Assembly (NCBI GenBank): GCA_016795505.1
Contig: JAEUHH010000091.1
Location: 1 to 45,937, forward strand
Direction: 5' to 3'
DNA: 45,937 nt
Source: Verrucomicrobiales bacterium
GTDB lineage: Bacteria; Verrucomicrobiota; Verrucomicrobiia; Verrucomicrobiales; DEV007
The notes beneath the pieces were generated by a model. The model saw only the letters and a program-made list of their open reading frames with translations, had not been told where the DNA came from and ran no database searches. A program made the translations under genes and the position numbers. Shown here one piece after another: positions 22,317 through 35,005 of the stretch (its first letter is position 1; every line of letters starts with the position of its first letter).

Positions 22317-22580
22317 GTGCTCGCAATCGATCCCGACCAAATGAAGAGGCTCAAATCCGCCGCGGTCGGGCGTTCCGGCCCTCAACACATGGTCATGCGG
22401 GCCAACATCGTGTTGCTTCGTGGTCAGGGTTTTTCCCAGCTGGAAGTGGCTGCCCGTCTTCAAGTGGAACGCGTCGTGGTCTCAGAATGTGGAAGCCGTT
22501 TCTGCAAAGAAGGTATCGCCGGGCGTTTCGCAAGGGGGCAGGCAATAATTATTGACAAAAGGGATTTCTCTCGATGGTAG
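22317..22580 (+). pseudogene. IS630-family transposase N-terminal remnant
   Basis: 87 codons. MVMRANIVLLRGQGFSQLEV, AARLQVERVVVSEC and SRFCKEGIAGRF are the helix-turn-helix start of IS630-type transposases (usual form RANIVLLAAEG, then VSRWRKRF, then GLAGL). After GIAGRF the similarity ends and the DDE catalytic domain is absent, so it is a dead 5' fragment. Confidence 0.7.
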
Positions 22581-22774: not shown

Positions 22775-23048
22775 CTTCGGAGGGGGCAGCCCTGATTTTT
22801 TTGACAGAAGCGTTCGGGCCGGGCGGCGAGAATTTCTCTTGTGGCCAGGGGGCGTGCCTGATAGCGTCGGCGCCAGAGAGGGAGGGAACCGAATCCGACA
22901 GTCTCGACACGCCCCATCGGCGACCGATTGACGATGGCGGCTTGGAACGTCTGCCATGGCTCCATTTGTTCTCGCGCCCTGTGTTTGGTCGTTGAATGAC
23001 GGCGCGCAGGGTTTCCCAGCAGATCGACCGCGCAACCGTAACGAGTCA
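22775..23048. other. non-coding stretch upstream of the quinone-cofactor operon
   Basis: No conserved gene found on either strand. It must hold the promoter of the operon beginning at 23049, but I see no clear -35/-10 pair. A TTTTTTTGACAG at about 22796-22807 could provide a -35. Confidence 0.3.
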
Positions 23049-24569
23049 ATGTCCAGGTATTCATCCCAGTTGTTGAGTCATATTGCCGGACACCGGGCCC
23101 GGCGGATGCTGATCTCCGCCGGTGCGGCGCCGAAGATCCGGCCGGAGCTGACCAAGCCGGACGACATGACGTGGCGGGATTTCACGATCCGTCTGCTCCA
23201 CATCGGGGCGGAGCTGGAGCATGGTCTGATGGTCCAGTACCTCTACGCGGCCTATTCGCTGGGCGGCGACCATCTAAGCGAGGCGGATCAGGAGGAGGTC
23301 CGGGAGTGGCAGGACTTGATCCTCACGGTGGCGCGGGAGGAAATGGGACATCTGCTGACGGTGCAGAACATCCTCTGCCTGTTGGGTGGGCCGATCACCT
23401 TCGAGCGGGAAAATCTGCCGTGGGATGGTCCGTTCTATCCGTTTCCCTTTCAGTTCGAGCCGCTGAGCAGGGCGTCATTGGGAGCTTATGTCTTTGCGGA
23501 GATGCCGGGCAACTTCGAGACGCTGGAGAAGCTCTATCAGTCCGGAACGACGGAGTTTGACCGCCTGTTTCGCGAGAAGGATCTGCCTTTCATCGAGGAG
23601 TTGGCCCGGGAATGGGTGACGCGGGGTGGGGCGATGCCGGTCGGGGAGGTTTATCACCTGATCCATGACATTCTGGCCGATCCGACGAAGATCGCCGATG
23701 CGGATTTTCGGGGGGATTCCTACCCGATGCAGGCTTCGTGGGATGATTGGGGGCGCGGTTACCATCCGCGGCCGGACTCGCCCAGCGGGGAGCCGGCGAA
23801 GCTCGATCCCAACAAAGCGAATGTGATCATCGAGCGGGTGGCGACCCGGACGCAGGCGCTCTACGCCATCCGCGAGATCTCCGGCCAGGGCGAGAATCCC
23901 GACCTGCGGCGCCCGGCGAACGAAGAGCCTTCGCACTTCGAGCGTTTCGTCGGGGTGCTGGAGGCTTTTGACAAAAAGGTGGAGGCGTGTCCGGACTGGA
24001 GCCCGTCTCGGCTGGTGCCGTGCAATCCGACGACCGGGGAAGTGTCGGATCCTCTCCATTTGCCGACCGGGACGACCCTGATTGCCAACCCGGTCTCGGC
24101 CAAATGGGCGAACTTGCTGAATTGCCGCTACCGGATGCTGCTGACTTATCTGTCGCACACCTATCGCATCGCGAGGCTCGTTGATCCGGACGAACCCAAT
24201 CTCCGCGGGGCGGTGATGCACCGGATCTTTGGTGAAATGTATCATTTGAAGGCCCTGTCCGGCATCCTGGTCCGGCTGCCGCTGACGGAAGATCCAGAGG
24301 ATCCCCGGCGCGCCGGGCCGCCTTTTGAAATGCCCTACACGCTGGCTTTGCCTCCCGATGAGATCGACTGCTGGCGCCTGCACCAGGATCTGGTGCGCAC
24401 GTCGGAGCTGATCTGCGGCGCGCTGCTCGGAGATCGGGAAGCGCTGGAGATGGGGCCGCCCGAGGGCGAGGCCTACCTCCGCACGTTGAGAAATCACGAC
24501 CAGCAGGCCATCGCCTGGCTAGACACGGTCATCGCCGGTCTCATCGCCAATGGAGGTCGACATTCATGA
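23049..24569 (+). CDS. ferritin-like protein (VioB/RebD-type PF12902 domain), first gene of quinone-cofactor operon
   Basis: 506 aa from the ATG at 23049; the longer frame upstream is unconserved. Residues about 45-240 form the ferritin-like domain found in iminophenyl-pyruvate dimer synthases (VioB, RebD, StaD) and in stand-alone proteins: HIGAELEHGLMVQYLYAAYS, then AREEMGHLLTVQNILCLLGG. The candidate metal ligands are E55 or E57, E98 and H101, with a second ExxH in the C-terminal half (GEMYHLKAL, E396/H399). Such sites bind iron or manganese. The stop overlaps the next start as ATGA, so it is coupled to the LodA-like gene. It could oxidise the product or deliver metal/oxygen chemistry; its role is unknown. 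Confidence 0.8.
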   Translation: MSRYSSQLLSHIAGHRARRMLISAGAAPKIRPELTKPDDMTWRDFTIRLLHIGAELEHGLMVQYLYAAYSLGGDHLSEADQEEVREWQDLILTVAREEMGHLLTVQNILCLLGGPITFERENLPWDGPFYPFPFQFEPLSRASLGAYVFAEMPGNFETLEKLYQSGTTEFDRLFREKDLPFIEELAREWVTRGGAMPVGEVYHLIHDILADPTKIADADFRGDSYPMQASWDDWGRGYHPRPDSPSGEPAKLDPNKANVIIERVATRTQALYAIREISGQGENPDLRRPANEEPSHFERFVGVLEAFDKKVEACPDWSPSRLVPCNPTTGEVSDPLHLPTGTTLIANPVSAKWANLLNCRYRMLLTYLSHTYRIARLVDPDEPNLRGAVMHRIFGEMYHLKALSGILVRLPLTEDPEDPRRAGPPFEMPYTLALPPDEIDCWRLHQDLVRTSELICGALLGDREALEMGPPEGEAYLRTLRNHDQQAIAWLDTVIAGLIANGGRHS

Positions 24570-26923
24570 AAATCCGCGCACTCCGCATCCTCCCGCCCTT
24601 CGCGATCGCCCGTCTGGGTTCGTCTCCGGACCCCTTGGTGAACTACTCGATCGACGACGATCCCGACTTGCCTCTGGAATTCCGCGGCATCGTCGCCCGG
24701 GAGACATTGGTGGTCGATCCTGCCACGGGAGAGATATCCGAGTCGTTTCTGCCCGAGGAGATTGCCTTCAAGGATGAGCAGGAGCGCATCCGGCCGGTCG
24801 CTCCGTTTCTCGAAGTTTTCGCTGTGACGGATGAGGACAAACTGGTCCCGCTGACGACGGCGATGCTCGTCGCCGAAGGGCTCGGGCCGGAGGATCTGTC
24901 GTGGAATGTCCGCGTGGCCAATCGCAAGGTGGCGCGGCGCACGGGCAACGAGAAGGATGCGGTCACGGCTGACTCAGGGTGGTTTTCCCATCACGAGGCC
25001 GCCCGGCTGGAGGGCCACTCGCCCCACTTTGTCAGCGAAGAGGCCTCGATCCATTTCGGAGAGGTCCGCTTCATCAGGCCGAACGAGCGATTCCCCGAGA
25101 TCCGTCTGCGCTTTACTCCGGCTCAGGGGCTGATTTACGGCCCGGACCGGCCGCCCAGAAAGCACCCCGATGTGGATCCCTACTCGGAGCCGGTAAACCA
25201 GTATGTGGTGCCGGAGGAGCGCCGCGTCTACCGGGCGACGGACGAAAAGGATAACTGGTGTGGCTTTGAGGTGAGCCCGGGGATCGACAATGCGGATCCG
25301 GATTACCAGGGGCCGTTCATGAACGAGACCCTGCCACCGTCGCTGTTTGCAATCGTGCCGCCGGCTCCCTGCTGGCTGCATGGCAACATCGCCATCAGCC
25401 GCGGCTATTTTGACGATGCCTGCGATGGGATCGTCGAGGTGCGGCTGAATCGAAAGCAGGGCGAGCCGCTTTCGGCCCTCGCGCGGGTCACGGCAGGGCC
25501 GCCCGCGATGATCCCGGACACTCTTTTCCTCCGCAATCTGGCCGACGACCTCGACCAGGTCATCCACGGTCCCGCGGTGCCTGCCGACGAACCCGCCGAA
25601 GTCACCAGGTCGCGAGCCATCGACATCGTCAGGCGGGCCTTTGAGACGGTGCGCTTCCTGAATGTCGCGGTGATGAACGGCAATCCGGTGAATGGGCAGG
25701 ATCCGCTGGCTTTCGACACAATGCCGGCCGAGGAGGCCTTCGACATGCAGCGCCTGATGCGGCCCGTGGTGCCCGAGCGCACCGCCGACACGCTGGCGAT
25801 CCTGGGGCTGCACCAGCAGGTCTTCATCGCCCTGCGCGGAGGCGCTGCACCGTGGTTTGCCGATGTCCTGCGGCGGCCGGATGAAGTCGCGGACTTTACC
25901 AACCGGGGCCGCCGGAAAATGCCCGCGATGATGTGCGGTGCCGACGGGAACTATCTCGCGCTGACCTGGCGACAGATCGACACCATCGTCCGGGCATCGC
26001 GTCTGGCTCTCGGTGCCGGCATTGAAACCAAAAATTCGACCCCGGCGATCGAGTCGCTGCGGCCCGGTCCGTTGACGCCGCGCAACCGTTCGGCACAGAT
26101 CCACTACATCGCCGCCGGGAACCCGGTGGCATCGCGCCCGCTGACGGCGATCTCAAACTGCACTCCCGGGCTGGAGGTGGACTTCCGGGCGGTCTGGCGG
26201 CGGGTTTTTGCCGGCATCGAATTGCGGGAGTGGGACAACCTGGTGATCCGGATGGACCCCGGTGCCACTGCGGATGTCCTGCCGGACCTCTCCGGTCACC
26301 GGTTGCTACGGGTGAACGGAAAGCACATGATGACCCAGGCCATCGGACCGTCGCCCGCGGATGTCGACAACCAATCGGTGGTACTGTCGACCGAGGACAA
26401 TCCGTCGGCGATCGCTCCGCTAGAGTGGTCCAACTCGCTCGCCGAGATTCTGCACCATTTCACCGGCAAACGGGTGACCTGTGATTTCACCGCCGAGGCG
26501 GTCTGGCTCGATCAGGCGGCCTGGACGGGCAAGGCGGGGGACTACATCACGCTGGAGTTGGAGGTGAGGCCCTTCTTTGATGCCGATACGGCGGTCATCT
26601 CGCCGTCACTGGCGGTGCCCGGCGAGTTGACTCAGGGGCTGTGCTCCCCCTGGCAGAACGACTACCGTGAATGCTCATGCTACTACTGGGCCGGTGCCCG
26701 CCCCGACTACGTCAATGTCGAGGCCGCGCCCTCCGGGATGAGCAAGGGCGACAACTGGATGCAGAAAGAGCGTACCGGCGACTACGTGGCCGATGACTAT
26801 GTGGACTCCCGCATCCTGCACTACGACGACCTGTTCAATGACTGGGAGAAGGTGCTGAAATTCCAGATCGGCGGGCGCGATGCCGACAAAGCGGCGTCGG
26901 CGAGCAGGCCGCAGGATAGTTGA
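24566..26923 (+). CDS. LodA-like quinone-cofactor oxidase with a QhpC-like C-terminal crosslink motif
   Basis: 785 aa, coupled to the upstream gene (ATGA) with GGAGG 9 bp before the ATG. The N-terminus (RILPPFAIARLGSS) and the block NCTPGLEVDFRAVWRR (from about residue 531) are typical of LodA/GoxA proteins, which oxidise amino acids using cysteine tryptophylquinone (CTQ) made from their own Cys and Trp. Near the C-terminus, C693, W696, D699, C703, C705, W708 and D714 lie in LCSPWQNDYREC and CYYWAGARPD. Their order resembles QhpC, where Cys27-Asp33 and Cys41-Asp49 are thioether-linked and Cys37-Trp43 is CTQ. C639, 69 residues before W708, is an alternative CTQ Cys (LodA spacing is 65). No signal peptide. 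Substrate unknown. Confidence 0.85.
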   Translation: MKIRALRILPPFAIARLGSSPDPLVNYSIDDDPDLPLEFRGIVARETLVVDPATGEISESFLPEEIAFKDEQERIRPVAPFLEVFAVTDEDKLVPLTTAMLVAEGLGPEDLSWNVRVANRKVARRTGNEKDAVTADSGWFSHHEAARLEGHSPHFVSEEASIHFGEVRFIRPNERFPEIRLRFTPAQGLIYGPDRPPRKHPDVDPYSEPVNQYVVPEERRVYRATDEKDNWCGFEVSPGIDNADPDYQGPFMNETLPPSLFAIVPPAPCWLHGNIAISRGYFDDACDGIVEVRLNRKQGEPLSALARVTAGPPAMIPDTLFLRNLADDLDQVIHGPAVPADEPAEVTRSRAIDIVRRAFETVRFLNVAVMNGNPVNGQDPLAFDTMPAEEAFDMQRLMRPVVPERTADTLAILGLHQQVFIALRGGAAPWFADVLRRPDEVADFTNRGRRKMPAMMCGADGNYLALTWRQIDTIVRASRLALGAGIETKNSTPAIESLRPGPLTPRNRSAQIHYIAAGNPVASRPLTAISNCTPGLEVDFRAVWRRVFAGIELREWDNLVIRMDPGATADVLPDLSGHRLLRVNGKHMMTQAIGPSPADVDNQSVVLSTEDNPSAIAPLEWSNSLAEILHHFTGKRVTCDFTAEAVWLDQAAWTGKAGDYITLELEVRPFFDADTAVISPSLAVPGELTQGLCSPWQNDYRECSCYYWAGARPDYVNVEAAPSGMSKGDNWMQKERTGDYVADDYVDSRILHYDDLFNDWEKVLKFQIGGRDADKAASASRPQDS
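26642..26707 (+). other. candidate multi-crosslink/CTQ motif in the LodA-like protein
   Basis: Codons C693 to D714. Recalled QhpC has LC-x5-D, then x3, then Cys, then Trp-Trp-Pro, then D; here LC-x5-D-x3-C-x-C-x2-W-x5-D. The Cys693/Asp699 spacing (6) equals QhpC Cys27/Asp33, and Trp708/Asp714 (6) equals Trp43/Asp49. Cys703 to Trp708 is 5 rather than 6. The downstream DDLFNDWEKV resembles QhpC DDVMQDWRKL. The comparison is from memory. Confidence 0.6.
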
Positions 26924-28349
26924 GCAAGCCATCGTGCAAATACTGGCCACAGATCTGAATGGCGAACGGCGAACCGAGCGCCTGAGGCGCACGGCCCGCA
27001 GCGTCATGGCTGTTTCCCGGCCCCGGGCGGAGCAGATGCACCTGATCGAATCCCCGGACGGACTGGGCCAGGGTCACCTGTTCGTGGTGGACGGGAGCCG
27101 GCTCTTCGATGTGGAGGCAGGGTTGTTTTCTGAGCTAAGACAGACGGCTGGTGGCGAAAGCCTGTCCCGTCTGCTGGATCGGGTGGGGCTTGGCGGGCCT
27201 CCCCGGATCGACGATGAGCCGCTGACAGCCCCACCGGTGAGGGCTCTGTCGCTTGCGATCGCGCAAAAGTGCAATCTGGGCTGCACCTATTGCTATGCCC
27301 AACAGGGTGAGTTCGGCGGGGCCGCCAAGAACATGTCACCTGGGATAGCCGACGCATCGGTGGATCTGCTGCTCGCCGATGCCGCGCCGGGCGAGCGGTA
27401 CAATCTAGCCTTTCTCGGAGGCGAACCGCTCGCGAACCGGGCCACCCTGCAGGCCACTACCCGGCGGGCCGCCGCCCTGGCGGGGGAACGGGGCGCAACC
27501 CTGACGTTTTCCATCACCACGAACGGCACCCTGGTCACGGAGGCGGACGCCGATTTTTTTGAGGAACACGGATTTGCTGTCACGATCAGTCTCGACGGTC
27601 CGGCAGAGGTCCACGATGCCCTGCGCCCCTACAAGGGAGGCCGCGGCAGTTATGAGACCGTGATGGAAAGAATCACGCCGCTTCTTCGCCGACAGCGCCA
27701 GATGCAGGTATCAGCCCGGGTGACCGTGACGCCGCGAAACCTGCGCTTGCGTGAGACGCTCGAGCATTTCCTCGCGGCAGGGTTTCACAGCGTCGGCTTT
27801 TCTCCCTTGCTCCGTTCGCCGAGTGGCGCGGATGAAATGTCCATCGAGACGCTGGAGACGATGCTGGGCGAGATGATCGATTGCGGCCTGGAATACGAGC
27901 GCCGCACCCGAAAGGGAGAGCGTTACGCGTTTGCCAACCTCACCAATGCCTTGAAGGAAATTCATCGGGGTACCCATCGGCCCTATCCCTGTGGAGCGGG
28001 AGCCGGCTATCTCGGGGTGTCTGCGGATGGCGACCTGGCCGCCTGCCATCGGTTCGTCGGCGACGACGAGGGACAGATGGGATCGGTGCTGGGCGGATTG
28101 GACACAGCGAGGCGCGGCGACTGGCTGGCGGAGCGCCATGTCCACCGCCAGGAGCCCTGCCGATCATGCTGGGCACGCTATCTGTGTGGTGGCGGGTGCC
28201 ACCATGAGGTGATCCAAAAAGGCAGGCCCGCGTGCGACTACATCCGCGGCTGGCTGCACTATTGTCTGGAGGCCTATCTGCGCCTCACGGCGGCGGGTAT
28301 GTATCCGGATCCTGCCGAAGCACGGGCTGAGGGGATGACGAACCGGTGA
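26880..28349 (+). CDS. radical SAM/SPASM maturase, QhpD (PeaB)-like
   Basis: 489 aa as an open frame overlapping the oxidase gene by 44 bp; starts at 27006 (MAVSRP) or 27036 (MHLIESPDG) are more natural because homology begins there. The radical SAM cluster motif is CNLGCTYC (C131, C135, C138). The SPASM region has YPCGAGAGYLGVSADGDLAA, CHRFVGD, PCRSCWARYLCGGGCHHEV and ACDYIRGWL (C371, C389, C427, C430, C436, C440, C452), ligands for two auxiliary Fe-S clusters. This layout is that of QhpD, which forms Cys-to-Asp/Glu methylene thioethers in QhpC. No qhpA, qhpB or qhpC is nearby; the LodA-like protein is the obvious substrate. Confidence 0.88.
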   Translation: MPTKRRRRAGRRIVEQAIVQILATDLNGERRTERLRRTARSVMAVSRPRAEQMHLIESPDGLGQGHLFVVDGSRLFDVEAGLFSELRQTAGGESLSRLLDRVGLGGPPRIDDEPLTAPPVRALSLAIAQKCNLGCTYCYAQQGEFGGAAKNMSPGIADASVDLLLADAAPGERYNLAFLGGEPLANRATLQATTRRAAALAGERGATLTFSITTNGTLVTEADADFFEEHGFAVTISLDGPAEVHDALRPYKGGRGSYETVMERITPLLRRQRQMQVSARVTVTPRNLRLRETLEHFLAAGFHSVGFSPLLRSPSGADEMSIETLETMLGEMIDCGLEYERRTRKGERYAFANLTNALKEIHRGTHRPYPCGAGAGYLGVSADGDLAACHRFVGDDEGQMGSVLGGLDTARRGDWLAERHVHRQEPCRSCWARYLCGGGCHHEVIQKGRPACDYIRGWLHYCLEAYLRLTAAGMYPDPAEARAEGMTNR

Positions 28350-28355
28350 CCGGCC

Positions 28356-29783
28356 ATGGCGATCCAGTGCGACATCTGCATCATCGGAGGAGGACCGGCC
28401 GGAAGCGTCCTCGCCTCCCGGCTGGCGGCCTGGGGCTGGAATGTCATCGTCGTCGAGCGGGCGGCGTTTCCCCGCCGGCATCTGGGGGAATCGCTCTCCC
28501 CGGGCGTGTTGCCCCTGCTGGAGACGATTGGAGCCGCGGACGCCATTGAGAGCGCCGGTTTTACCCGCGTGAGACGGGTCTCAGTCGATTGGGACGTGGC
28601 TACCGAACGCGACGATCCCGCCGGCCGAGGGCTGCTTGTGGATCGGGGTCGTTTTGATCGGTTGCTGCTCGATCATGCCCGGGGACGGGGAGCCAGGGTG
28701 TTGCAACCGGCCAGAGCCGGCCGTCGACGCTGGACGGGGAGCGCCTGGGAGGTGGAGGTGACGTTGGGAACCCGCCCGATGACGCTGCAGGCGACATTTT
28801 TGGCGGACGCCTCGGGCCGGGGTGGGATCACCGGGAGCCGTCGCCCCACCGGGGCAAGGACGGTGGCCCTGCACGGCTACTGGGAGGGCAAGGGGCTTCC
28901 CAGCCATCCGAAGATCGAAGCCGGGCCGAACCGATGGCATTGGGGTGTCCCACTTCCGGACGGCTCCTACAACACGCTGGTATTTCTGGATCCCGCCGAT
29001 CTGAAAACCATGTCCGGCACGCTCGGGGAAAAATTTCACACCTTGTTGGCCGGATCCGGGCTGATTCCACGCGGCGCCGAGGCATTCCTGTCCGGGCCGG
29101 TTCGAGCCTGTGATGCGACGCCCTATCTGGATGAGGCGTGCGTGTCTGACGCGTTCATCCGGGTCGGGGATGCCGCTCTCGCGTTGGATCCGCTGTCCTC
29201 AAGCGGTGTGCAAAAGGCGATTCAGAGTGCCCTGTCGGGCTCAGTCGTCGTGAACACCCTCTTGAGACGGCCCGAATCCGCAGAGTTGGCCCGCCAGTAT
29301 TTCCTTCACAGTCTCAGCGAGGCATCGGCCCGTCACCAGGAGTGGGCGGGCGCCTACTACGGCCTCGTCGCCTGTCGTCGAGCCGATCCCTTTTGGCAAA
29401 AGCGGGCCACGGGAGTGGCTTCCGGGCCTCTTTCGCCGGAAATGGGTGAAGGCATCGCCGGGCTCACGCCGGAGACCCGGCTGCGACTCTCCCCGGACGT
29501 GAGGATTCGCCAGGTGCCCTGCGTGGGCGACTCGTTTATCGAGGCGCGGCCCGCCGTTTGTTCCACCGCTCTGGGCACGCCGGTGGCTTATCTGGGTGGT
29601 GTGGAGCTTGTTCCTCTGATCTGTGGCGTCAGGGATGGCATGACGGTGCGCGAGTTGGTGACAAACTGGTCGCGGGACATGGCCCCGGCGAGAGGGATGG
29701 AATCACTCCGATGGATGGTGTCACGTGGTCTGCTGATTGCCGGTGCGGCCAGACAGGCTGCGGAAAAAGGAGGGGGCTCATGA
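28356..29783 (+). CDS. FAD-dependent monooxygenase, QhpG/LodB-like (tryptophan-halogenase superfamily)
   Basis: 475 aa. Rossmann FAD motif IIGGGPAGSVLASRLA (residues 9-24), FPRRHLGESLSPGVLPLL, and a second FAD motif RVGDAALALDPLSSSGVQKA. These blocks are those of flavin monooxygenases related to tryptophan halogenases, the group that includes LodB/GoxB (needed for CTQ formation in LodA/GoxA) and QhpG (hydroxylates the QhpC Trp). It lacks the halogenase WxWxIP active-site string as far as I can see. The C-terminal 90 residues (PVAYLGGVELVPLICGVRD, GMTVRELVTNW) look like a small winged-helix or PqqD-like domain, possibly for peptide recognition. It starts 6 bp after the radical SAM stop. Confidence 0.85.
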   Translation: MAIQCDICIIGGGPAGSVLASRLAAWGWNVIVVERAAFPRRHLGESLSPGVLPLLETIGAADAIESAGFTRVRRVSVDWDVATERDDPAGRGLLVDRGRFDRLLLDHARGRGARVLQPARAGRRRWTGSAWEVEVTLGTRPMTLQATFLADASGRGGITGSRRPTGARTVALHGYWEGKGLPSHPKIEAGPNRWHWGVPLPDGSYNTLVFLDPADLKTMSGTLGEKFHTLLAGSGLIPRGAEAFLSGPVRACDATPYLDEACVSDAFIRVGDAALALDPLSSSGVQKAIQSALSGSVVVNTLLRRPESAELARQYFLHSLSEASARHQEWAGAYYGLVACRRADPFWQKRATGVASGPLSPEMGEGIAGLTPETRLRLSPDVRIRQVPCVGDSFIEARPAVCSTALGTPVAYLGGVELVPLICGVRDGMTVRELVTNWSRDMAPARGMESLRWMVSRGLLIAGAARQAAEKGGGS

Positions 29784-32700
29784 GCGCCACGCTGACAGAT
29801 TGGCTGAAGGCGAACGATCTGCTCGAGTTTGAGCCGATTCTGGTGGAGAACGAGGTCGACCTGAAAGCCCTCAAAGTGCTGACGGAGTCGGACCTCGCTG
29901 AGCTCGGGCTGGCTTTCGGGCCGAGGAAACGGTTTCTCAATGCCATCGCGGCCCTGAAGAGCGCGGATGACGGCGCCGGACCCGCGAGAGAGGCGGCCGT
30001 CACGCCGGTGCCATCGGGCGAACATCGCCACCTAACCGTGATGTTTTGCGACTTGGTCGGTTCCACCACCCTGGCGGAGCGGCTGGATTCCGAGGAGTTG
30101 CACGAGCTTTTCAAGGAGTACTACAAAGTCTGCACCGATGTGGTGCTGAGCTACGAAGGCTATGTGCATAACCTGATGGGAGACGGCCTCCTGATCTATT
30201 TCGGCTGGCCGGTGGCCTACGAGGACGCGGCGGAACGTGCGGTGCGGGCGGCGTTGAAGATGGTGGAGGCGGTGAAGCGCATTCCCGCCGCCGAGCCGCT
30301 GGTCGTCCGGGTCGGACTGGCCACGGGATCGGTGATTGTGGGGGAGGCCTCTCGTGACGGCCGGGTGGAGACGGGACTGGTGGTGGGCGAGATACCGAAT
30401 CTCGCGGCGAGATTGCAGTCGCTCGCGGGACCGGACGAGGTGGTGATCGCTCCGTCGACCCGCCGGCTCCTGAAAAATACCTTTGCCCTGACCTCGCTCG
30501 GCCTGCATTCGCTGAAGGGCATTGCCCAGCCCGTGCAGGTGTGGCGGGTGGAGCGAGCTCTGCGAACCGAGGGGCGCTTCGACGCGGCCAAGGGCGGCGC
30601 TGGCCTCTCGCCGCTCGTCGGTCGCGAGGAGGAGTCCCAGTTGCTCTGGCAATCCTGGATGCGTGCCCGTCGGGGCGAGGGGCAGGTCATCCTGCTCGGG
30701 GGACAAGCCGGCATCGGCAAATCCCGGCTCACTCAGGGGCTCAGGGAGAGCATCGAGGAGACCCATCACGAGCTTCTCTATCAGTGTTCTCCCTACCACC
30801 TGAACTCTCCGCTCCATCCGTTTGTCGAGCAGTTTGAGACCTTGGCCGGCTTTACCCATGATGACAGTGAGGCCCTGCGGCTGGACAAACTCGAGGCCGC
30901 CCTGGTGGGTGATCGAGAGCAGATCTTTCAGACAGCTCCATTGATCGCCGCGCTGCACTCCCTGCCTGCCGATCGATACGCATCGCAGCCACTTTCGCCC
31001 CAGAAGCAGAAGGAATTGACCCTGGAGGCCCTCTCCGCCCAGATCGAGACCCGGTCGCGGCTCGCTCCCGTACTGATGGTGGTGGAGGATTTTCACTGGA
31101 TCGATCCCACCAGCCAGGAGTTGCTCAATCTCCTGGTGTCCCGCATCCGCAACCTGCCGATTGTCCTGATTCTGACATTCCGCTTGGAAAGCAATCCCCC
31201 GTGGGAAGGACAGCCGGGAGTGACCACCGTCAAACTGGATCGACTCGAGCGACAAGCCGGAGCCCAGATCGTCGAGACGGTGACGGGTGGAAAGACCCTG
31301 CCGTCCGGCGTGCTCGATGAGATCCTGGCCCGCACCGACGGGGTCCCTTTGTTCGTCGAAGAAATGACCAAGTCGGTCATTGAGTCGGGGCAATTGCGTG
31401 AAGAAGAGGGCCGTTATGTCCTCGACGGATCTCTGGCGGCCCTGAGTATTCCCGACTCATTGCGGAATCTGCTGATGGCTCGTCTCGACCGGTTGGGACC
31501 CGCGAAGGAGCTGGCTCAGATCGGCGCCTGCATCGGACGCGAATTTTCCGGCGAGTTGCTTGGTCATGTGTCCGGAAAGGCTTCCGACCGGCTGGTGGCG
31601 CCGCTGGAGACGCTCATTTCGGCGGAATTGGTGACTCGCGCGGGCGGTTCCTCCACGGACCTGTATCGATTCAAGCATGCCCTCATTCAGGATGCCGCCT
31701 ACGACTCACTCCTGAAAAGCACCCGGGCAAAGATGCATGGGCGCATCGCGCAGATCCTGGAGACGGCATTCGCCGATCGGGTCACCAATACCCCGGAGCG
31801 GGTGGCCCACCATCACACCCAGGCCGGCAACCTGTCCGAGGCGATTCCGCTCTGGCGTCAGGCTGGCACCCTGGCCGTGAAGCGAGTCGCCCTGCAGGAG
31901 GCGGTGGCCCATTTTCAAAAGGGCCTGACCCTGATCCATCAATTGTCCCCGTCGCAGGAGCGTGATCGCATCGAGCTCACCATCCGGGAACCCCTGAACG
32001 CCGCATGGACGGGCTTGCGCGGATGGGCGGCGCCCGAGGTGGGCGAGAATGCCGCGGCCGTGCTACGCCTGGCCGAGCGGCAGGAGGATTCGCAGAGCCT
32101 GATGCTGGCGATGTGGTGGGTCTGGACCAGCACCATCACCCAGGGGAAGATCGCCGATTCCGAGCAGTGGGCGGATCGCCTCCTGGCCAAGGGGCGCGCC
32201 GACGGAGGGATTGATCTCAGGATTTTCGGTCATGCGACCGCCATGGTGCAGCATTTCCTCAGCGGTCGGCTGGCCGAATCGAGGATTCATTCCGATCACG
32301 CGCTCGATCTGTGGGAGCCGAAGGATGCGAACCGTTGGATCCAGCTGACCGCTTTCGACATGCGCACGTTCGTCGAGGTGTATGCCTGCCAGCTGATCTG
32401 GATCATGGGCTATCCCGAGCAGGCAAAGCGCCTCAGTGACGAATGCGTCGCCTATGCACGGTCGAGCGGACACATCTTCAACCTGGTCTGGGCGCTGACC
32501 TTCAGTGCCTACGTCTTCGCCTACCGCAGGGAGCCGGAGAGACTGCTGGAAAGGGTCGAGGAAGCCGAGCGGCTGGCCCGCGAGCAGGGGCTGGCTTTCA
32601 TATCGGAGGTTTCCGTGCCCCAGGCCAAGGGAATTGCCGAACTGCAGCGCGGACAGGTGCCCGTGGCGATTTCCCTGCTCAAACAGGGCATCGAGCGATG

Positions 32701-33148
32701 GACGAGGACGGGCGGCAACGTCCGCATCCCGCTGATCAAGACCGCGCTGGCCGAGGCTCTCGAAAAGAGCGGCGATCCCTACCGGGCGCTCGAGTTGATC
32801 CAGGAATGTCTCAAGCAGATCGAGGCACCGCATGGACAGGAGAGACTTTGGCTGGCCGAGGTGTTGAGATGCAAGGCCTCCATACTCATGGAAATGGATC
32901 GGGAGGCGGAAGCCGAGGCCCTGCTGCGATCGGCGCTCGCCTGCGCGCGGGAGCAGCGGGCCCGATCGTGGGAATTGCGCAGCGCCGTGACGCTCGCGCG
33001 CCTGCTGGCACGCAAAGGCCACCTCGGAGAGGCCCGCATCCTGCTCGCGCCCGTTTACGAGTCTTTCACCGAAGGCCGCGACACCGCCGATCTCATCGAG
33101 GCAGGGCAACTGCTAGGGGAACTCACTGCCGGCGTGCTTGTGGATTGA
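29780..33148 (+). CDS. SAM-domain / class III adenylate cyclase / AAA ATPase / TPR signalling protein
   Basis: 1122 aa, ATGA overlap with the flavoprotein and a strong AGGAGGGG Shine-Dalgarno. Domains in order: sterile alpha motif (about 5-60, WLKANDLLEFEPILVENEVD); class III cyclase (about 84-255) with metal aspartates D91 in VMFCDLVGSTT and D135 in NLMGDGLLIYF; AAA/STAND ATPase with Walker A GGQAGIGKSRLT near 310 and Walker B VLMVVEDFHWID; then TPR-like helical repeats to the end. Such proteins are usually soluble cyclases or ATP-dependent regulatory switches. Placement at the end of a cofactor-oxidase operon is unusual and suggests cyclic-nucleotide control of the pathway. Whether it makes cAMP or cGMP is not determinable here. 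Confidence 0.9.
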   Translation: MSATLTDWLKANDLLEFEPILVENEVDLKALKVLTESDLAELGLAFGPRKRFLNAIAALKSADDGAGPAREAAVTPVPSGEHRHLTVMFCDLVGSTTLAERLDSEELHELFKEYYKVCTDVVLSYEGYVHNLMGDGLLIYFGWPVAYEDAAERAVRAALKMVEAVKRIPAAEPLVVRVGLATGSVIVGEASRDGRVETGLVVGEIPNLAARLQSLAGPDEVVIAPSTRRLLKNTFALTSLGLHSLKGIAQPVQVWRVERALRTEGRFDAAKGGAGLSPLVGREEESQLLWQSWMRARRGEGQVILLGGQAGIGKSRLTQGLRESIEETHHELLYQCSPYHLNSPLHPFVEQFETLAGFTHDDSEALRLDKLEAALVGDREQIFQTAPLIAALHSLPADRYASQPLSPQKQKELTLEALSAQIETRSRLAPVLMVVEDFHWIDPTSQELLNLLVSRIRNLPIVLILTFRLESNPPWEGQPGVTTVKLDRLERQAGAQIVETVTGGKTLPSGVLDEILARTDGVPLFVEEMTKSVIESGQLREEEGRYVLDGSLAALSIPDSLRNLLMARLDRLGPAKELAQIGACIGREFSGELLGHVSGKASDRLVAPLETLISAELVTRAGGSSTDLYRFKHALIQDAAYDSLLKSTRAKMHGRIAQILETAFADRVTNTPERVAHHHTQAGNLSEAIPLWRQAGTLAVKRVALQEAVAHFQKGLTLIHQLSPSQERDRIELTIREPLNAAWTGLRGWAAPEVGENAAAVLRLAERQEDSQSLMLAMWWVWTSTITQGKIADSEQWADRLLAKGRADGGIDLRIFGHATAMVQHFLSGRLAESRIHSDHALDLWEPKDANRWIQLTAFDMRTFVEVYACQLIWIMGYPEQAKRLSDECVAYARSSGHIFNLVWALTFSAYVFAYRREPERLLERVEEAERLAREQGLAFISEVSVPQAKGIAELQRGQVPVAISLLKQGIERWTRTGGNVRIPLIKTALAEALEKSGDPYRALELIQECLKQIEAPHGQERLWLAEVLRCKASILMEMDREAEAEALLRSALACAREQRARSWELRSAVTLARLLARKGHLGEARILLAPVYESFTEGRDTADLIEAGQLLGELTAGVLVD

Positions 33149-33200
33149 CTTCGGCAAAGAAACCGTCCAACCATGGCGAAGTAACCGCAACGAACCGAAA

Positions 33201-33653
33201 ATGAACCAGAATAGTGAAGCCCAGACCCTGAACCCGGATCTCGATCCCGGCCTGCTCAAAGCCCACAAAGCCTACGAAGCCGCCATCAATTCCAACAATG
33301 TCGACTGCGTCATGGCGATGTACGACAAGGACGCCGAGATCCTCCAGCCAGATGGACCGATCGTGACCGGTCTGGATAACATCCGGAAATGGGTCGAGGA
33401 CTACTTCAATGCCTATCACACCCATTGGGTGAAGGTTCCGTTGAAGAACTTCGTCTTCGGCGATCTCGGATTCGACGAAGGCATCGACACTGCCGTCGAC
33501 ACGCCGAAGAACGGAGGCAAAGCCATCCACTGGGACTGCAAGGGCATCCTCGTCTACAAAAGACAGGCGAACGGAGAGTGGCTGATCTTCCGGGACATCT
33601 GGAACAACACCACGCCCCCGAAGGAAGTGGACCCGGGCGCCCCGGCCAACTAA
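33201..33653 (+). CDS. SnoaL/NTF2-like protein (DUF4440-type)
   Basis: 150 aa from the ATG at 33201. The region LLKAHKAYEAAINSNNVDCV, MAMYDKDAEILQPDGPIVTG and KWVEDYFNAY is the standard start of the cone-shaped SnoaL/DUF4440 fold, ending GILVYKRQANGEWLIFRDIW. Members bind small molecules or assist isomerisations, and many have no known role. It follows the cyclase gene by 52 bp and may be part of the same transcript; no strong ribosome binding site. Confidence 0.8.
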   Translation: MNQNSEAQTLNPDLDPGLLKAHKAYEAAINSNNVDCVMAMYDKDAEILQPDGPIVTGLDNIRKWVEDYFNAYHTHWVKVPLKNFVFGDLGFDEGIDTAVDTPKNGGKAIHWDCKGILVYKRQANGEWLIFRDIWNNTTPPKEVDPGAPAN

Positions 33654-33685: not shown

Positions 33686-35005
33686 ATGAGCCAGCCGATC
33701 CAATTTCCCCTCCCCGCCAGTGAGCTGCCCACTCACTGGTCCAATCTGCTGCCGGACTTTCCCGAGCCCCTGCCGCCACCCCTGCATCCCGGCACCGGGG
33801 AGCCGGTCACGCCCGACCTGATGGAGGCGCTGTTTCCGGCGACCCTCGTGGCCCAGGAAATGTGCGGCGACGAGACCGTCGAAATCCCGCAGGAGGTGCG
33901 GGATGTCTACTCACTCTATCGACCCACGCCGCTGCTGCGGGCGGTGAGACTCGAGAAGGCTCTCAATACGCCGGCCCACATCTATTACAAATACGAAGGG
34001 GTGAGCCCGGTCGGCAGCCACAAGCCGAACACCGCCATTCCACAGGCTTACTACAACAAGATCGCCGGCACGAAGCGCCTCGCCTCCGAGACCGGCGCCG
34101 GTCAATGGGGCTCATCGCTGGCTTTTGCCTGTAGTCTGTTCGGGCTCGAATGCACCATCTACATGGTCAAGATCAGCTTCCAGCAAAAGCCCTACCGGAA
34201 GCTCCTCATGCAGACCTATGGGGCCGAGGTCCACGGCAGTCCGAGCCTGCGCACGGAGTTTGGCCGCAAGGTGCTGGCTGACCATCCCGACAGCCACGGC
34301 AGCCTGGGCATCGCCATTTCCGAGGCGATCGAGGATCAGGCCACCCACCCGGGCACCAAGTATTCGCTGGGCAGCGTGCTCAATCACGTCTGTCTCCACC
34401 AGACCGTGATCGGCCAGGAGACGATCAAGCAGATGGAAATGGCCGGCGAAGAGCCCGACATCGTCATCGGTTGCTCGGGCGGTGGCAGCAATTTTGCCGG
34501 GATCGCCTTCCCCTTCGTGCGGAAAAAGATCCGCGAGGGCAGGCGCTACCGCATCATTGCCGTCGAGCCGGCGTCGTGCCCGTCGCTGACGCAGGGCGAA
34601 CTGCGCTACGACTTCGGCGACACGGCCATGACCACGCCGCTCATGATGATGCACACGCTGGGCCACGATTTCATGCCGCCGAGCATCCATGCCGGCGGTC
34701 TGCGTTACCACGGCATGTCGCCCATGGTGAGCCATTGTTTGAAGCTCGGCCTCATCGAGGCGGCCGCCGTGCCTCAGTTGAAAGTATTCGAAGCCGCCGT
34801 CCAGTTCGCCCGCAGTGAGGGCATCGTGCCCGCGCCCGAGTCGGCCCACGGCATCGCCACCGTCATCGATGAGGCGGTCCGGTGCCGCGAGGAAGGGAGG
34901 AAGGAAGTCATCGTCTTCAATCTCAGCGGGAATGGCCTGCTCGACCTGGCGGCCTACGATTCCTTCTTGTCCGGCAAAATGATGGATTCAGGGGACGACG
35001 CGTGA
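33686..35005 (+). CDS. trpB2: tryptophan synthase beta-like protein TrpB2
   Basis: 439 aa. PLP lysine K113 in [11 protein letters not shown], the [12 protein letters not shown] loop, and the phosphate-binding [11 protein letters not shown]. The extended N-terminus with YRPTPLLRA and the variant HKPNTA place it in the TrpB2 group, which condenses indole and serine without a fixed TrpA partner. No trpA is present nearby. The ATG has CGGAG directly abutting it, closer than usual, so a different start cannot be excluded. Transcribed separately from the quinone operon. Confidence 0.93.

Follow-up and report, generated by a model that had tools for sequence, protein, structure and literature searches.

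Cysteine tryptophylquinone (CTQ) cofactors are known to be made by two routes, in LodA/GoxA with the help of a flavoprotein alone, and in quinohemoprotein amine dehydrogenase (QHNDH) by a radical SAM enzyme together with a different flavoprotein. In a stretch of 45,937 nucleotides from a Verrucomicrobiales bacterium (contig JAEUHH010000091.1, positions 1 to 45,937; the window), genes resembling parts of both routes stand in one operon, which raises the question of what this operon makes, and by which chemistry. An earlier note on this DNA had proposed a single large oxidase that gains both thioethers and a tryptophylquinone. Judged by the comparisons reported here, the operon probably encodes a cytoplasmic CTQ oxidase of LodA/GoxA fold that would be matured by QhpC-type chemistry, with Cys-Asp staples. 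The cassette is real and occurs widely, and no earlier description of it was found in the open-access literature. Its features in the window are as follows:

23049..24569, + strand: ferritin-like protein gene (PF12902, 77.5 bits; distant VioB-type; ORF opens at 22956, likely start ATG 23049)
24566..26923, + strand: LodA/GoxA-fold protein gene, 785 aa (PF17990, 27.4 bits; profile match and AF2 model)
24566..26005, + strand: LodN, the N-terminal half of the LodA-like protein (encoded on its own in about half of the relatives)
26006..26920, + strand: LodC, the C-terminal half with the cofactor loop (likewise encoded on its own in about half of the relatives; in five it is joined to a ferritin-like domain)
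26159..26176, + strand: C532-x-PGLE537 motif of the LodA-like protein (possible counterpart of QhpC Cys7...PGWE16)
26204..26611, + strand: putative PDZ-like insert, residues 547-682 of the LodA-like protein (Foldseek; no Pfam match)
26618..26707, + strand: cofactor loop PGELTQGLC693SPWQND699YREC703SC705YYW708AGARPD714 (proposed CTQ C703-W708; proposed thioethers C693-D699 and C705-D714)
27006..28349, + strand: QhpD-like radical SAM/SPASM enzyme gene (ORF opens at 26880; TIGR03906, 322 bits; cluster cysteines; tree)
28356..29783, + strand: QhpG-type flavoprotein monooxygenase gene (NF049967, 319 bits; nearest PDB structure 7CTQ)
29780..33148, + strand: SAM-domain/class III cyclase/AAA/TPR protein gene (accessory, kept in 14 cassette loci)
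33138..33653, + strand: DUF4440/SnoaL-like protein gene (accessory, kept in 7 cassette loci; likely start near 33201)

ORF and homology checks confirmed the operon of LodA-like, QhpD-like radical SAM and flavoprotein genes described in the earlier note. The span given there (23049-33148) also takes in the ferritin-like and cyclase genes, which its title omitted. The role of the ferritin-like protein as a partner had been overlooked, as had the QhpC-like loop and the fact that the LodA-like protein also exists in split and fused forms. The ferritin-like gene overlaps the ATG of the LodA-like gene by 4 bp, the radical SAM and flavoprotein genes are separated by the claimed 6 bp, and the flavoprotein stop overlaps the cyclase ATG by 4 bp (ATGA coupling). 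An overlap had also been claimed between the LodA-like and radical SAM genes; it requires the radical SAM ORF to be read from 26880, 44 bp within the LodA-like gene. As similarity to most relatives begins at residues 41-46, ATG 27006 is the more likely start, leaving a gap of 82 bp after the LodA-like gene. The intergenic gaps of the operon leave no space for a separate precursor peptide gene. The window holds no qhpA, qhpB or qhpC, as the note had it; across the window's own genome, the QhpA heme domain (PF09098) was absent in a search with a working positive control, and the QhpC family (PF08992) gave no match in a search run without one. PADLOC matches to Viperin and a Pycsar cyclase were discarded as superfamily-level only. 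Just upstream of the cassette, at 22317-22580, a short ORF resembles a transposase remnant by eye.

The assignment of the LodA-like protein required profiles and a predicted fold, as a single-sequence search of the PDB gave no match. LodA_N (PF17990) was found above its gathering score (27.4 vs 26.3 bits) and LodA_C (PF18417) below (18.0-19.6 vs 25 bits), and a profile of 51 relatives matched a profile of 14 LodA-type proteins over the N-terminal half (99.1%, E 8e-19). The top PDB matches of the AF2 model (pLDDT 80.6, pTM 0.88) were all LodA/GoxA structures, aligned end to end over 450 residues at Z 16 (rmsd 4.2 for GoxA), after which Z drops to 7. As modelled, the protein has the overall LodA/GoxA fold. 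An insert that follows the NC-x-PGLE motif and precedes the cofactor loop lacks a Pfam match; all of its top Foldseek matches were PDZ domains (E 0.02, Z 5-7), moderate support for a predicted PDZ-like domain. The cofactor loop itself was modelled at low confidence, and a prediction of LodC only left it at a pLDDT near 38. By eye, no signal peptide is evident.

The loop follows the pattern LC-x5-D-x3-C-x-C-YYW-x5-D and reads LC693-SPWQN-D699-YRE-C703-S-C705-YY-W708-AGARP-D714 in the window, where QhpC (PDB 1JMX) reads LC27-QPMEA-D33-LYG-C37-SDP-C41-W-W43-PAQVP-D49. In QhpC, the gamma subunit of QHNDH, thioethers join Cys7 to Glu16, Cys27 to Asp33 and Cys41 to Asp49, and the CTQ is formed by Cys37 and Trp43 (PMC8172795, PMC7876137). 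The spacings of C693, D699 and C703 and of W708 and D714 (C-x5-D, D-x3-C, W-x5-D) are identical to those of QhpC; in the loop alignment, C705 is displaced by two positions relative to Cys41, which makes the C705-D714 distance 9 and not 8, and the Cys-to-Trp gap is 5 vs 6 in QhpC. All six residues (C693, D699, C703, C705, W708, D714) are invariant in 94 aligned cassette proteins. An hhalign comparison of LodC with QhpC gave the same register at a weak score (E 0.026), on which we do not claim homology of the whole domains, and QH_gamma (NF037958) weakly matched seven of eight LodC proteins (best E 0.029). With respect to LodA, C703 aligns with the CTQ cysteine, which sits in the sequence PWQADFFNC, and W708 is equivalent by motif; the LodA cofactor is formed by Cys516 and Trp581, 65 residues further (PMC4417212). 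Asp699 is also the conserved aspartate of LodA and GoxA, a point against the staple reading. Since C532 is missing or shifted in 5 of the 98 readable relatives, a third link between C532 and E537 is only a possible one, and doubtful.

Relatives were gathered by tblastn on plasmids and by a scan of GTDB genomes with a C-terminal profile (199 relatives, 80 kept), and compared with 16 LodA-type proteins drawn from 14 genomes or plasmids, the cassette being present in several of these as well. The two extra cysteines are present in 100 of 100 cassette proteins, 80 of whose loci were found with patterns containing these very cysteines, vs 0/16 and 0/16 of the LodA-type proteins; the latter carry Ala or Gly at the position of C693 (Cys in 0/16) and no cysteine between the CTQ cysteine and the tryptophan (0/16), at longer gaps (12-34 by the parse of the script). 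An aspartate at W+6 is found in 100/100 vs 4/16. The pattern holds in all 20 loci found independently of the motif, 13 on plasmids (whole-protein tblastn) and 7 from myxobacteria (LodN profile), some of the same species as among the 80; for 13/13 vs 0/16, Fisher's p is 1.5e-8, ignoring relatedness. The radical SAM gene is present in 98 of the 100 cassette loci; of the two others, one is a MAG without any radical SAM match, and the second apparently has its gene immediately beyond the fetched stretch, if the contig numbering matches. None of the 16 LodA-type genes has a cassette-type radical SAM gene of its own; an adjacent cassette and the radical SAM gene belonging to it fall within the stretches L126 and L129, and an unrelated SPASM protein lies at the edge of L131. 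Comparative evidence thus strongly supports the single large oxidase that had been proposed, with Cys/Asp pairs in every cassette protein and in none of LodA/GoxA type; from it we infer the crosslinks, the quinone and the identity of the radical SAM substrate. In Flavobacterium, Dyadobacter and Bradyrhizobium, no more than a few kilobases separate the cassette from a LodA-LodB operon (L063/L129, L071/L126, L088/L130), as if the two were used together.

The radical SAM enzyme scored best with the QhpD family (TIGR03906), at 322 bits vs a curated equivalog cut-off of 453, followed by PapB (275 bits), nif11 (233) and SCIFF (220). All 8 QhpD sequences and nearly all of the 103 from cassettes keep its CX3CX2C motif and seven SPASM cysteines. 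In the tree, the cassette enzymes form a clade (SH-aLRT 95) separate from the eight QhpD sequences (96), in an analysis with poor outgroups, and the residue corresponding to Cys335 (numbered from ATG 26880) is Cys in 100 of 103 cassette enzymes and Leu in all eight QhpD. The earlier note had made a place in the QhpD clade a test of its reading; with the enzyme outside that clade and its score below the cut-off, we rejected QhpD proper, although QhpD is still the best-scoring family; by sequence, the enzyme classifies as QhpD-like, not QhpD. QhpD and PapB, the two best-scoring families, are both reported to form thioethers between Cys and Asp/Glu (PMC8172795, PMC9413430). The PapB ranthipeptide maturases share this chemistry, but their substrate is a small peptide, and the cassette enzyme scores below the curated PapB cut-off.

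The flavoprotein had been called QhpG/LodB-like, of which the first half stands: it passed the cut-off for QhpG (NF049967, 319 vs 240 bits) and stayed far from those for LodB (106 bits) and GoxB (103 bits), both set at 400. The flavoproteins of six relatives likewise scored 270-333 bits with QhpG, above 240, whereas three from LodA-type operons scored 163-190 bits, below the cut-off, and best with LodB or GoxB. In Dyadobacter (L071/L126), where the cassette is adjacent to a LodA-LodB operon, the two flavoproteins sort to the QhpG type and the LodB/GoxB type accordingly, and a flavoprotein tree gives a single clade for each of the three groups (cassette, LodB, QhpG). Of the residues Glu42, Arg47, Trp183 and Arg314 of the nearest PDB structure (7CTQ), all but Arg47 are kept, as read off one alignment. 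In QHNDH, QhpD forms the thioethers and QhpG dihydroxylates the tryptophan of the crosslinked QhpC (PMC7876137).

Compared with the known systems, the cassette shares with QHNDH the CTQ-loop spacing with Cys-Asp pairs, a QhpD-like radical SAM enzyme and a QhpG-type flavoprotein, but it has neither heme alpha nor beta nor small secreted gamma subunit, carries the loop in a protein of predicted LodA fold and has its radical SAM enzyme outside the QhpD clade. With the amino-acid oxidases LodA and GoxA (partners LodB and GoxB) it shares the fold, the motif PW-x-x-D-x3-C and a flavoprotein partner; these, however, are without the two extra cysteines, have a Cys-Trp gap of 12 or more (65 in LodA) in place of 5, and mature without a radical SAM enzyme and with LodB in place of a QhpG-type protein. 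The best reading of these comparisons is that the cassette works like the QHNDH maturation system on a LodA-fold oxidase, and is not QHNDH itself.

In the proposed mechanism, the radical SAM/SPASM enzyme would bind the C-terminal domain and fix the loop by two links, each from a cysteine to the methylene carbon of an aspartate (Cys693 to Asp699, Cys705 to Asp714), perhaps with a third between Cys532 and Glu537. The QhpG-type flavoprotein would then dihydroxylate Trp708, and Cys703 would add to Trp708 to yield the cysteine tryptophylquinone. The mature oxidase would deaminate an amine or amino acid, with the ferritin-like partner probably acting on the imine product.

That LodC is the substrate of the radical SAM enzyme is suggested by the gene order, by the lack of space for a precursor and by a residue pattern that tracks the presence of the enzyme. 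Should the enzyme instead make the Cys703-Trp708 link, or a crosslink other than Cys-Asp thioethers, with the extra cysteines serving otherwise, this would suit its position in a clade of its own with clade-specific conserved residues such as Cys335, as well as the C-x-C-YYW segment, which is more tightly packed than in QhpC; we consider this unlikely, given that each extra cysteine has an invariant Asp at a distance equal or close to that in QhpC, and given the Cys-Asp/Glu links reported for both best-scoring families. A still lower probability goes to the extra cysteines being metal ligands or disulfides, perhaps for the ferritin-like partner, with the radical SAM enzyme modifying that partner or another protein. 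Fusions of LodC to the ferritin-like domain in some relatives would fit such a role, but the pattern fits QhpC and not a known metal site, and the ferritin-like partner is also found beside LodA-type genes without the cassette radical SAM enzyme (L132, L134). It is very improbable that the enzyme's substrate is a separate small peptide (a RiPP) and that the enzyme stands beside the oxidase incidentally: its family neighbours, the PapB, SCIFF and nif11 maturases, do act on peptides, but the operon has no room for a peptide gene, and the cassette is kept across phyla.

With thioether formation on the LodA-like protein as the preferred reading, the cassette applies QHNDH-type maturation to a LodA-type protein, which suggests that the two routes are evolutionarily linked. 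With an oxidase of one or two chains, the purpose of the thioethers can be tested directly, and radical SAM crosslinking, so far described chiefly for small peptides and for QhpC, would extend to a large enzyme in at least nine phyla. More tentatively, and with rather less than even confidence, the cassette could represent a widespread class of quinoprotein oxidases linking LodA/GoxA and the QHNDH gamma subunit, in which the stapled loop is coupled, in some cases within a single polypeptide, to an imine-using ferritin-domain enzyme as an oxidase-coupling pair for unknown natural products.

The ferritin-like gene opens the cassette in the relatives, and its product is the only PF12902 protein in the window's own genome. 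It scored 33 bits with VioB (cut-off 1250), with only the ferritin-like domain matching. VioB, RebD and StaD act on the imine product after their flavin oxidases. The cassette likewise has a ferritin-like domain beside an oxidase that would yield an imine, but the likeness to VioB, RebD and StaD is confined to that domain, and the oxidase would be a quinoprotein in place of a flavoprotein; by this analogy, the partner may use the imine product. In L132 and L134, ferritin-like genes lie directly upstream of ordinary LodA-LodB pairs without a cassette radical SAM gene, so this partner also occurs apart from the radical SAM version. That it is found beside these LodA-type genes, and also fused to LodC, points to a role together with the oxidase. 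A second cassette type consists of LodN, the radical SAM gene and then the LodC-ferritin-like fusion (L012, L014, L015, L016, L017; Streptomyces, Nostoc, Rhizobium, Microvirga). Fungal lodA genes also have a ferritin-like gene nearby (PMC4417212).

The synteny search across genomes that the earlier note had called for found the order ferritin-like, LodN, LodC, radical SAM, flavoprotein in nearly all of the 80 loci, far beyond chance. Cassettes occur in at least nine phyla (Verrucomicrobiota, Pseudomonadota, Bacteroidota, Myxococcota, Acidobacteriota, Planctomycetota, Gemmatimonadota, Actinomycetota, Cyanobacteriota). Among 100 loci, the LodA-like protein is encoded by a single gene in 48, is split or incomplete in 47 and has LodC fused to the ferritin-like domain in five; both halves are mostly annotated as hypothetical protein by NCBI. 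A search of 195 genomes from the window's phylum gave no LodA_C, and among 289 genomes only the window's own contained a relative of the LodA-like protein, so this copy was possibly acquired by transfer.

The SAM-domain/class III cyclase/AAA/TPR protein adjoins the cassettes of 14 relatives spread over several phyla (L019, L021, L023-L025, L027-L031, L033, L034, L036, L037) and is perhaps a dedicated signalling partner. The DUF4440/SnoaL-like protein accompanies the cassette in seven, on either side (L021, L023, L030, L031, L032, L034, L037). A TrpB2-like PLP enzyme adjoins the cassette in three distant loci (window 33686-35005, L031 11917-13959, L034 15613-16797), a hint at indole or tryptophan chemistry that may be due to chance.
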